Part shown: piece after piece, positions 3,491-44,358 of the stretch
How positions within the stretch are numbered: position 1 is the stretch's first letter
How the letters are laid out: every line of letters starts with the position of its first letter
Source of the DNA: Candidatus Cloacimonadota bacterium
GTDB taxonomy: Bacteria; Cloacimonadota; Cloacimonadia; Cloacimonadales; TCS61
DNA: 44,358 bases
Assembly (NCBI GenBank): GCA_021735645.1
Contig: JAIPGP010000021.1
Location: forward strand, 1-44,358
Reading direction: 5' to 3'
Notes under the pieces: model-generated
What the model was told of the DNA's origin: nothing
Seen by the model: only the letters and a program-made list of their open reading frames with translations
Databases searched by the model: none
Made by a program: the position numbers and the translations under genes

Positions 3491-3526
3491 TATAGGTCTT
3501 ATAGGTCTTATAGGTCTTATAGGCGA
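3491..3526. repeat. 9-nt-period array, unit TATAGGTCT
   Basis: Three exact TATAGGTCT units begin at 3491, 3500 and 3509, and a fourth, diverged unit (TATAGGCGA) begins at 3518. The same word recurs at 4433-4450, and related words occur at 7431-7452. It is a direct array only, with no second arm here. Confidence 0.85.
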
Positions 3527-3901: not shown

Positions 3902-4414
3902 ATGAGAACTGGAATAATTAAAACGTGGTTGTTACTGTTTCTGATTGTTGTTCCCGCGGCATTACTTATTGCCGTTAAACAGGAAGGTGAAAATAATAAT
4001 ACATCCATAGCACTGATCTTAGAGGAAATACGAGGAACTCAGAATGTGACTTCAGATAACAAAATTCAACCCGATAAAGTTAATATCCTGCAATTGGGAA
4101 AGCTTGGTGAAGCAGTATTTTCCAATTTATTTCCCGATAGGAGCAAACGGGAATTCATGGAGAATCTGATGAGAGAAGAAGATTCCGAATCTTTAGAGGA
4201 ATTGTATCAGCGGATCGGATATAAATATCTAAAAGAAGGTTTTAAATTACCAGTCAATGATCTAAGCAGTAAGCCCAAAGAACCTGGTTACCATATCGGT
4301 TTTGGAGAAATATTGGTGCTATTATCATTTTTAATACTGGTAATTCTTTGGAGAATATTCAGCTACGTTAAAGAGATACTGCGGCATAATAAGGTTGGGA
4401 AAGGAGATAATTGA
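3902..4414 (+). CDS. Hypothetical two-helix membrane protein, 170 aa
   Basis: Not recognised. An N-terminal hydrophobic segment (about residues 8-25, WLLLFLIVVPAALLIAV) and a second near residues 134-154 (ILVLLSFLILVILWRIF) bracket a ~105-residue hydrophilic, acidic central domain that would face the periplasm or exterior if both segments span the inner membrane. The C-terminus is short and basic. GAGG (3893-3896) precedes the ATG by 5 bp and a good -10 box lies just upstream, so it seems to be transcribed alone. A 9-nt-period repeat follows the stop. There is no neighbour of related function. Confidence 0.75.
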   Translation: MRTGIIKTWLLLFLIVVPAALLIAVKQEGENNNTSIALILEEIRGTQNVTSDNKIQPDKVNILQLGKLGEAVFSNLFPDRSKREFMENLMREEDSESLEELYQRIGYKYLKEGFKLPVNDLSSKPKEPGYHIGFGEILVLLSFLILVILWRIFSYVKEILRHNKVGKGDN

Positions 4415-4423
4415 TTGTTTTCT

Positions 4424-4468
4424 TTTAGGACTTATAGGTCTCATAGGTCTTATAAGTCCTATAGGGCA
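4424..4468. repeat. 9-nt-period array with hairpin arms
   Basis: Units step by exactly 9 nt from 4424, 4433, 4442, 4451 and 4460 (TTTAGGACT, TATAGGTCT, CATAGGTCT, TATAAGTCC, TATAGGGCA). The first and fourth units create an exact 11-bp inverted repeat: TAGGACTTATA at 4426-4436 and TATAAGTCCTA at 4451-4461. It follows the 170-aa gene by 10 bp, but there is no T-run to make it a classical terminator. Confidence 0.85.
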
Positions 4469-7430: not shown

Positions 7431-7452
7431 TATAAGTCCTATAGGACCTATA
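7431..7452. repeat. 9-nt-period palindrome
   Basis: TATAAGTCC (7431), TATAGGACC (7440) and TATA (7449) step by 9 nt and together form a near-perfect palindrome around GTCCTATAGGAC (7436-7447). It lies 9 bp after the lipoprotein stop and uses the same words as the arrays at 3.5 and 4.4 kb. Confidence 0.8.
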
Positions 7453-19354: not shown

Positions 19355-19374
19355 TAAATCAGCCCCCCCCCCAC

Positions 19375-19445
19375 ATGGACTCCATGGACAAAATGGACTA
19401 TATGGACACACCGTCCATAAAGTCCATATTGTCCATTGTGTCCAT
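19375..19445. repeat. 9-nt-period two-arm element, ATGGAC / GTCCAT
   Basis: Left arm: ATGGAC starts at 19375, 19384, 19393 and 19402, each followed by three variable bases. Right arm: the reverse complement GTCCAT starts at 19413, 19422, 19431 and 19440. Both arms keep an exact 9-nt step, so the 71-bp element folds into one long imperfect hairpin. It lies between two convergent genes, flanked by a run of ten C (19363-19372) on one side and a run of seven C plus seven A (19453-19466) on the other. Confidence 0.95.
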
Positions 19446-19458
19446 AAAAATGCCCCCC

Positions 19459-19490
19459 CAAAAAAAGATCAGCCCTTGCAGGCAAGGGCT
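19459..19490 (-). terminator. Terminator of the PEGA-FadL gene
   Basis: A stem of AGCCCTTGC (19471-19479) with its complement at 19482-19490 is followed on the minus strand by GATC and seven T (19460-19466 on the plus strand). It lies 28 bp past the stop at 19519. Confidence 0.8.
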
Positions 19491-22175: not shown

Positions 22176-22208
22176 GTCCATAATGTCCATAGTGTCCATC
22201 CTGTCCAT
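22176..22208. repeat. 9-nt-period array, unit GTCCATnnn
   Basis: GTCCAT starts at 22176, 22185, 22194 and 22203, an exact 9-nt step, with variable triplets AAT, AGT and CCT between. It is the same word as the arms at 19.4 and 31.1 kb, but only one arm is present. Confidence 0.9.
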
Positions 22209-26745: not shown

Positions 26746-27881
26746 CTAAACTCCTCAATCTCACTTAGTAACTACATAATTTCTTTAAGCACTGCCCTTC
26801 TGTCAAGCATAAGCCTCCGGGCTCTTCTCCTCAAATACACATAAACCCTTTAAAGATATCGAGTTTAGATGATGTACTCATCAGATTGACTTGAGAATCT
26901 GACCCTGAAAAAAGCCCCATCTAAACCAAAAGTCTTATTCTCACACTTCCATTACATTGCCCCAGCTAAGTCAGAAGTTTTGAACGCTACCCCGGATAAG
27001 ACTTCTGGACGTCCTTCCCTCCTGATTCCCAGTCAGTCAAAGTCGCTCAAAACTCCTGTCCCGGGTACGATTCAGAAGTCTTAGCTCACCTTCGTTCCTA
27101 CATTACATTCCTCTGTGTTCTCTGTGGTTAAAAAACTCTTAAATTACATTAATCCGCACAAATCCCCAAAATCCGCGTCATCCATGTTCTATATTCTACC
27201 AACCTTCCCGCATTCCCGCCCCACCTGCGAAATACACCGGCGATGCACGTCTGCTCAGCTAAGTGCCCGTGCAACGCTAACGGTACTCCGGAAGTGTGGC
27301 GCAGGAAACGACCAATTTATAACCATACTACTATAATACTCTTTCTTATCTTATCCGTGTAAATCCCCAAAAATCCGCGTCATCCGTGTTCTATGTTCTA
27401 CCAACCTCACGCATTCCCGCCCCACCTGCGAAATACACCGGCGATGCACGTCTGCTCAGCTAAGTGCCCGTGCAACGCTAACGGTACTCCGGAAGTGTGG
27501 CGCAGGAAACGACCAATTCATCATAAAACTGCTATAATACTCTTTCTTATCTTATCCGCACAAATCCCCAAAATCCGCGTCATCCGTGTTCTATCTTCAG
27601 TCCCGGGTACCATTCAAAATCCTGGCTCACCTTCGTTCCTACATTACATTCCTCTGTGTTCTCTGTGGTTAAAAAACTCTTAAATTGCATTCTCCCACCA
27701 TTCGATTTACCTGTAACTATCATTCTGATGCTATACCCCTGTTTTCTCCAAAATTTACATTTATGTTTCTCTAACACTAACCTCTGTAAAGTCCCTTTTT
27801 TCATAATAATTCACCAGGAAAGGCAAATTTAGTTGACATATAATAATTTTATTAAAAAAGAATCTTGGTCATGGAGTATAT
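26746..27881. other. Gene-free repeat-rich region between divergent operons
   Basis: No credible gene is seen. It contains an inverted repeat (TCAGAAGTTTTGA at 26970-26982 against TCAAAACTCCTGT at 27047-27059), CTCTGTGTT/CTCTGTGGT 9-nt units at 27111 and again at 27651, two full ~201-bp repeat units (27161-27562) and a partial third. The block GTCCCGGGTAC plus the following CTCACCTTCGTTCCTACATT recurs at 27058 and 27599. Promoters for the minus-strand Wzi-like gene and the plus-strand ABC operon must lie at its edges; a TTGACA box is at 27833-27838. Confidence 0.75.
27161..27580. repeat. ~201-bp tandem repeat, two full units plus a partial
   Basis: The anchor AATCCCCAAA recurs at 27161, about 27362 and about 27563, giving a ~201-bp period. 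Each full unit holds ATCCGCGTC/ATCCRTGTT 9-nt words, TTCCCGCCCCACCTGCGAAA-like sequence and a core with CCGGCGATGCACG (27237-27249) opposite CGTGCAACGCTAACGG (27268-27283), which can pair with one bulge as a hairpin. The same unit recurs at 44049-44250. The units are nearly identical in the core and looser in the AT-rich spacer. Confidence 0.9.
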
Positions 27882-31101: not shown

Positions 31102-31208
31102 ATGGACACAATGGACTTTTTAGACAATATGGACGTAATGATAATTAAAACACAGCAGGCTTCTGCTTTGATGTCGTCCATTTTGCCCATTTTGTCCATA
31201 TTGTCCAT
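31102..31208. repeat. 9-nt-period two-arm element, ATGGAC / GTCCAT, second copy
   Basis: Left arm units start at 31102, 31111, 31120 and 31129 (ATGGAC, ATGGAC, TTAGAC, ATGGAC). Right arm units start at 31176, 31185, 31194 and 31203 (GTCCAT, GCCCAT, GTCCAT, GTCCAT). All step by 9 nt. The two arms are 41 bp apart and complementary, so the element can fold as a long stem with a loop. It lies between tRNA-Leu and tilS. Confidence 0.92.
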
Positions 31209-39936: not shown

Positions 39937-40029
39937 ACCACTGACCGCACTGACTTCTCTGACGAAAATAATGCCAGAATAAATAGGTTCTTTTCTTACA
40001 TTGTCAGTGCTGTCCGTGACGTCCGTGGT
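39937..40029. repeat. 9-nt-period two-arm element, CACTGAC / GTCCGTG
   Basis: Left arm ACCACTGAC, CGCACTGAC, TTCTCTGAC starts at 39937, 39946 and 39955. Right arm GTCAGTGCT, GTCCGTGAC, GTCCGTGGT starts at 40003, 40012 and 40021. Both step by 9 nt, and the outermost units are complementary at 8 of 9 positions. The architecture matches the ATGGAC/GTCCAT elements with a different word. Confidence 0.88.
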
Positions 40030-43879: not shown

Positions 43880-44358
43880 CCTCAACTAAGTCATAAGTGT
43901 ACCGCTGGCGTATTCCGCAAGTGGGACGCTAATGACGACCATCCCTCCTGATACCCAATCAGTCAATGTCGTCTTCTTACATCACATTCCTCTGTGTTCT
44001 CTGTGCCCTCTGTGGTAAAAAAAACTCTTGCATTACATTAATCCGCACAAATCCCCAAAATCCGCGTCATCTGTGTTCTATCTTCTACCAACCTTCCCGC
44101 ATTCCCGCCCCACCTGCGAAATACACCGGTGGTGCACGTTTGCTTTTCTAAGTGCCCGTGCAACGCTAACGGTACTCCGGAAGTGTGGCGCAGGAAACGA
44201 CCAATTCATCACAAAACTACGATAATACTTTTTCCTATCTTATCCGCACAAATCCCAAAAATCCGCGTCATCCGTGTTCTATATTCAGTCCCGGGGTATG
44301 GTTCAAAAGTCCTGGCATGCCGTCGTTCTTACATCACATTCCTCTGTGTTCTCTGTGC
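43880..44358. repeat. Repeat block related to 27 kb, running off the window end
   Basis: No credible gene is seen. A CTCTGTG array with an exact 9-nt step (43990, 43999, 44008) is followed by one full ~201-bp unit (about 44049-44250) nearly identical in its core to those at 27.2-27.6 kb, then a partial unit. TCCCTCCTGAT, a CAGTCAA/AATGTCG stretch (43944-43975) and the CCCGGG block near 44290 also match the 27-kb region. A diverged form of the unit's GGAAGTG/ACGACC core appears at about 43915-43941. The last bases enter another CTCTGTG pair. Confidence 0.88.

Follow-up and report, generated by a model that had tools for sequence, protein, structure and literature searches.

The short-word arrays in the intergenic DNA of the window (the whole stretch analysed here, 44,358 nucleotides of a Candidatus Cloacimonadota bacterium, contig C149 of its 3.77-Mb draft genome) are probably gene-less members of a family of elements in which a small gene lies between two inverted word arrays and encodes a protein that would recognize, and thereby mobilize, its own array. 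In a full element, a single short gene would be bracketed by two inverted arrays, in each of which a 6-7 nt word recurs at constant pitch. The gene product would be either GxxExxY, a putative PD-(D/E)XK nuclease, or a four-helix bundle (PF05635/TIGR02436, or the TIGR04258 'suffix' subtype). It is well supported that the arms are inverted and matched, that the word follows the lineage of the protein and the pitch its family, and that dispersed arrays carry the words of resident genes.

An earlier note on this DNA had described ten intergenic arrays with an exact period of 9 nt, and all ten were present. In the intergenic DNA of the window, 64 six-mer matches were counted at a lag of 9, whereas 100 dinucleotide shuffles averaged 2.0 and never exceeded 9. 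Further matches appeared at lags 18 (29) and 27 (17); coding DNA displayed its codon rhythm only. The units are made of 6-nt words and 3-nt spacers, giving a pitch of 9. The best case put forward in the note, four ATGGAC units followed by four GTCCAT units, was confirmed as a doublet with a 5-nt loop on the + strand (19375..19445); it is flanked by runs of 10 C (19363-19372) and 7 C (19453-19459). Another ATGGAC doublet (31102..31208, + strand) lies directly 3' of a tRNA gene and comprises four units, one of them degenerate, a 39-nt loop and four more units. A single arm of the same family, with four units reading GTCCAT on the + strand, is found on the - strand at 22176..22208. TATAGG arrays are present on the + strand at 3491..3523 (four units at pitch 9, single arm), at 4424..4465 (five units, oriented as in the 3491 array) and at 7431..7452 (three TATAGG/TATAAG units). 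The CACTGAC / GTCAGTG-GTCCGTG doublet, with 3+3 units, spans 39939..40028 (+ strand).

The CACAGAG family (CTCTGTG on the + strand) is represented on the - strand by arrays of two units at 27111..27126, two units at 27652..27667, three units at 43990..44014 and, as read directly at the window end, two units at 44342..44357. An ATCCG array with a pitch of about 9 (ATCCGCACAAATCCCCAAAATCCGCGTCATCC; 27152..27189, - strand), also read directly, follows the CTCTGTG array, and related ATCCG arrays occur again at 27540-27595 and after 43990. A larger repeat block (window 27000-27700 and 43880-44358) combines CCCGGGTAC, the CTCTGTG and ATCCG arrays and a GCGCAGGAAACGACCAATT tail; it is found in tandem, then again at the window end, and has many dispersed partial matches in the congeners.

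The periodicity extended to the genome, which we covered by pattern searches and by a 665-kb sample. Intergenic arrays of at least three units numbered 51 at period 9, 32 at period 7 and 12 at period 8 in this sample, and 0-4 at each of the periods 5, 6 and 10-13. The pattern GTCCATNNN x3 occurred 52 times in the genome, versus 0 for its backward control. The view that the word changes freely from site to site had to be abandoned, as ATGGAC, TATAGG, CTCTGTG and CACTGAC are families that recur within the window and the genome. The claim that a second arm is the reverse complement of the same word held for 17 ATGGAC doublets; the arrays at 22176, 27111, 27651 and 43990 and the three TATAGG sites are without an inverted second arm nearby.

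Genes were found between inverted arrays of this kind, and they belong to PF13366/TIGR04256 (GxxExxY) and to PF05635/TIGR02436/TIGR04258. CACAGAG-type arrays adjoin GxxExxY genes, and this was tested here. The window's genome has three PF13366/GxxExxY genes, each enclosed by inverted arrays with a different word: CACGGAACA, CCGCGAAAG and (A)CGAACAAA. PF13366 was present in 89 of 148 relatives; the closest named relative in the GxxExxY search was a Candidatus Cloacimonadota MAG (Candidatus Stygibacter frigidus; 89% protein identity). In the flanks of 126 GxxExxY loci, autocorrelation reached 124 at lag 8, 365 at lag 9 and 299 at lag 10; apart from these peaks and their multiples, most lags gave roughly 20-70. 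The two flanks shared 7.5 inverted 8-mers within a locus versus 2.0 between loci. The words fit the loose frame CRCNRAN, which at pitch 9 had 102 occurrences in the window's genome, where its backward control had 11, and was present in 128 of the 148 genomes.

GxxExxY words follow the protein and not the chromosomal site. Sharing of the array word increased from 2.5% of pairs at 20-30% protein identity to 23% at 50-60%, 67% at 80-90% and 100% above 90%. At one orthologous site, three loci (L005, L006 and L082) encode proteins that are 75-95% identical and have CACAGAG/CACGGAG arms. A fourth locus at the same site, L153, has flanks 85-89% identical to those of L006 and L082, and it combines a protein that is 46-49% identical with CGCAAAG/CTTAGCG arms on both sides. 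The same split of word and protein was observed at a second site, upstream of a purD-like gene (L027, L150 and L080 versus L079 and L016). Of note, L003 and L034 have the same GxxExxY gene (85% DNA identity) next to the same block (77%), with gene and block reversed relative to each other, as though an inversion had taken place between the arms of the element, and one single-contig genome has several GxxExxY paralogues within about 40 kb (G048:C1:786000-828000).

We considered the possibility that GxxExxY is the driver of every word. This was rejected, since ATGGAC arrays are not next to GxxExxY and three genomes (G058, G071 and G132) have many arrays without GxxExxY and carry PF05635 instead. 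Near the ATGGAC arrays, an ORF recurs in five genomes. Its representative in the window's genome, on contig C61, lies between two ATGGAC doublets and matches the profiles of four-helix-bundle proteins (PF05635, 1.7e-8; TIGR04258, 2.5e-18). Four TIGR04258 loci were found in this genome, and their arm words all differ: ATGGAC (C61), TATAGG (C89), GTGGAC (C3) and GTTAAC (C125, where the locus is split into two frames). Two words of the window, ATGGAC and TATAGG, therefore belong to resident genes located elsewhere in the genome, the word of the 3491 array being that of the arms on C89. CCGCGAA, ACGAAC and CACGGAA are also arm words around TIGR04258 or GxxExxY genes of this genome, and the CACTGAC doublet of the window resembles, without being identical to, the CACGGAA/CACTGAA arms of the GxxExxY gene on C10. 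No resident gene was found in the incomplete draft assembly for the CACAGAG/CTCTGTG and ATCCG words, which counts against our main proposal. In four other genomes (L045, L048, L270 and L273), an ATGGAC doublet is located in frame inside the TIGR04258 gene, the reading frame remaining open because nine-base units add three codons each.

ATGGAC arrays and TIGR04258 also co-occur among the 148 genomes: TIGR04258 was present in 13, ATGGAC arrays in 12 and both in 9 (Fisher p = 2e-9; by genus, 1.6e-4). Three genomes with ATGGAC arrays and no TIGR04258 match (G064, G106 and G043) count against the proposal. The resident words had 9, 11, 5, 3, 4, 1 and 9 sites in the 665-kb sample, counts that include some of the resident arms themselves, versus an average of 0.29 for random 6-mers. 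Of 20 foreign arm words taken from other genomes as controls, 13 were without any site in the sample; those present included CACAGA (11), ACGGAT (8), CACTGA (4), CAGGAT (3) and ACAGAT (2), and the fact that four of the controls reached at least 3 sites is a further point against the proposal. The earlier note had suggested a sequence-specific binder with site-specific words. A binder is favoured, because most words also occur in the arms of some small gene of this genome, and 'site-specific' becomes 'specific to the resident protein lineage'.

Pitch, in turn, follows the protein family. PF05635 (TIGR02436) genes have flanks that gave a pitch-7 series (305 at lag 7, 249 at lag 14, 155 at lag 21) and a pitch-8 series (197 at lag 8, 206 at lag 16), and their inverted arms were matched (7.65 versus 1.61 shared 8-mers). 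The dominant pitch was 7 in 32 and 8 in 20 of 71 PF05635 loci, 9 in TIGR04258 loci, and 9 in 32, 10 in 23 and 8 in 13 of the 126 GxxExxY loci. Another 43 of these 126 had no clear dominant pitch, which we count against the proposal. On the PF05635 tree, the 7/8 pitch label changes 9 times, versus a mean of 15.8 and a minimum of 11 in 300 shuffles. An exact pitch of 9 everywhere was rejected, as GxxExxY arms have a pitch of 8-10 and PF05635 arms of 7 or 8.

The 126 loci all keep the GxxExxY residues E35, D74, E84-x-K86 and Q98 (numbered as in the L003 open frame). DNA nucleases are the nearest matches of the predicted GxxExxY fold (pLDDT 88.6), namely Cas4 SSO0001, lambda-type exonucleases and MGME1, and a sequence search against solved structures gave no convincing relative. 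GxxExxY is assigned to the PD-(D/E)XK superfamily on the conserved E, D, ExK and Q, which form a putative active site, and on the predicted core fold. PF05635 proteins match 2gsc, which is XCC0516 of Xanthomonas, and 2rld, each deposited with five chains; S23p of X. campestris is reported to be a homopentamer of four-helix bundles (PMC4990558). A ring of subunits, each reading one word, would explain the fixed pitch.

We propose that the protein would bind the array of its own word, probably in oligomeric form and with each unit contacted by one subunit; words would then be constrained and spacers largely free. The spacers are not wholly free, the first base on the ATGGAC strand never being C and the third rarely so. 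Binding could then allow the gene-bearing element, and gene-less arrays in trans, to be copied or inserted, as has been proposed for RAYTs and REPINs. Three doublets of genome G101 look like copies, because their 21-nt loop and inner units are nearly the same and their flanks unrelated, and the distribution of arrays over genomes is patchy. G001 lacks the 19375 element at the corresponding position, and about 1 kb holding the CACTGAC doublet is missing from both congeners. So is the stretch between the 3491 and 4424 arrays, where G002 has one short TATAAG array; the 7431 array is present at the orthologous site of G001 with 5 units. A 170-aa ORF with hydrophobic ends (3902-4414), without match in Pfam or NCBIfam, lies between the two direct TATAGG arrays in that roughly 1-kb stretch. 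At two G001 loci (L236 and L234), a different dispersed palindromic repeat, of the GGGCAGACACCCGGGTCTGCCCC type, lies near sites where the window has arrays. Comparisons with the congeners revealed no precise empty site or target-site duplication, a finding that weighs against the proposal, and many gene-bearing sites are old; movement is therefore slow at best.

We considered the possibility that the proteins are regulators binding word arrays in DNA or RNA, with the arms of their own genes serving autoregulation and the dispersed arrays forming a regulon that arose by mutation and selection rather than by movement. Resident arms abut the start and stop codons of their genes, and orthologous gene-bearing loci persist at the same sites, as this would predict. 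It would also account for orthologous arrays that keep words and not spacers. The orthologue of the 19375 doublet in G002, next to coding DNA that is 76% identical, again has four plus four units, and it keeps 46 of the 48 positions in words but 5 of the 18 in spacers (p = 3.7e-8). Either the words at 19375 are under selection, or the element has been rebuilt at the same place. Yet the near-identical G101 doublets at unrelated places, the replacement of whole elements at one site and the patchy distribution over genomes are not expected of a regulon. Nor are arrays enriched upstream of genes: by gap type, 8 were convergent (4.6 expected by length), 29 tandem (30.9) and 10 divergent (11.5). We therefore regard regulation without movement as unlikely.

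Could the genes merely ride on arrays that some other machine makes and spreads? One genome, G074, has 120 matches to the pattern but lacks both PF13366 and PF05635, which counts against our proposal and agrees with such passengers, as do the words for which the draft assembly holds no resident gene. A passenger, however, would not be expected to set the word, and here the word tracks the protein lineage and the pitch the family; the invariance of the putative catalytic residues of GxxExxY also argues against it. We consider this explanation rather improbable.

Ordinary tandem-repeat slippage, or hairpins at RNA 3' ends, would account for tandem units and for doublets that fold as strong hairpins (z -10.4, -5.7 and -4.1). 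The spacers nevertheless differ unit by unit, and the words match resident genes. The reading as terminators was rejected because single arms gave no fold in the same test and the sites have no 3'-end preference; the gap-type counts likewise did not bear out the statement that nearly all arrays lie just downstream of transcription units. Both variants are very improbable. Local copying, in which strand-switch or template-driven extension would have made the second arm from the first, as the earlier note had suggested, would explain why arms match in word within a site (365 of 384 positions, 95.1%, in the 17 ATGGAC doublets, whose orientation is head-to-head versus 1 tail-to-tail), but it is hardly credible and was rejected because the spacers do not match between arms (43 of 141 positions, 0.305, no better than the 0.34 across unrelated sites), and the words are common to many sites of the genome.

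Returning to elements whose small protein would recognize its own array, we tentatively extend the proposal, with less confidence than for the window itself, to a general bacterial class. A small oligomeric protein would read a word array, with a pitch of 7, 8, 9 or 10 set by the fold family and a sequence set by the lineage, and would spread gene-less arrays; heptamer repeats, including TAACTGA, may be its pitch-7 branch, and four-helix and GxxExxY elements may share one lifestyle. Two large families without known function, the PF05635 four-helix bundle and GxxExxY, would gain a concrete DNA partner, whose word and pitch could be predicted from the flanks of each gene. Should every protein read a word of its own, the code could be learned from the many protein-word pairs that natural variation provides.

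The earlier note knew of no named system producing such arrays, in agreement with the literature that we searched. A full-text search, with subscription papers and preprints outside its scope, found no link of GxxExxY, PF13366 or PF05635 to such arrays, and the association of arrays with small genes suggests an undescribed kind of gene-plus-repeat system. CRISPR also has regularly spaced direct repeats with variable spacers, and the predicted fold of GxxExxY is Cas4-like. CRISPR repeats, however, are about 24-40 nt long, are separated by unique spacers about as long, and come with cas genes, whereas here a 6-7 nt word alternates with a 1-3 nt spacer in inverted arms, and no Cas protein was found among the nine window proteins scanned near arrays. 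MITEs are likewise gene-less inverted-repeat relatives of a gene-bearing unit; in contrast to them, no transposase, target-site duplication or fixed terminal sequence was seen here, and there was no precise empty site for comparison.

The intervening sequences of 23S rRNA that carry S23p, a protein of unknown function in that literature (PMC4990558), share with the four-helix elements, but not with the GxxExxY elements, the PF05635 family, and they too have a gene between inverted repeats and a patchy, apparently horizontal distribution. Their inverted repeats form a single uninterrupted stem, whereas here word arrays and dispersed gene-less copies are found; there was no rRNA match in the window, and the loci examined lie between protein genes.

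Heptamer repeats, described for TAACTGA (PMC4679880) and by SPADE (PMC6344855), are also intergenic arrays of short words, patchy across phyla and with several words. They have an exact pitch of 7, unlike the pitch-9 arrays of the window, but PF05635 loci of the same class have a pitch of 7 or 8, and one pitch-7 arm word is TAACTGn (L291). The published accounts describe exact tandem heptamers with no flanked gene and no protein tied to them (PMC4679880, PMC6344855); SPADE found intergenic heptamer repeats to be widespread, with no clear clue to their function (PMC6344855), and MacGregor suggested an unknown binding protein for the TAACTGA repeats (PMC4679880). For these repeats our analysis offers a candidate protein, the link with PF05635 elements being only suggested. 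TAACTG and GTCCAT arrays of viral contigs had a gene of the class at 1 of 120 loci and none within 600 bp, PF05635 being likewise absent within that distance of the TAACTG arrays; the TAACTGA link therefore rests on one locus (L291).

REPINs and their RAYTs (PMC3116915) are also dispersed intergenic repeats, mostly inverted hairpin doublets, with a resident gene flanked by the same repeat and several families in a genome, each of them belonging to a single gene lineage. Here too, a repeat family is tied to a flanked resident gene, though not for every word. REP sequences are imperfect palindromes of 16-40 nt and RAYT is a Y1 (HUH) tyrosine transposase, whereas the present arrays are built from 6-7 nt words at a pitch of 7-10 with variable spacers, and their genes encode a four-helix bundle or a putative PD-(D/E)XK nuclease.
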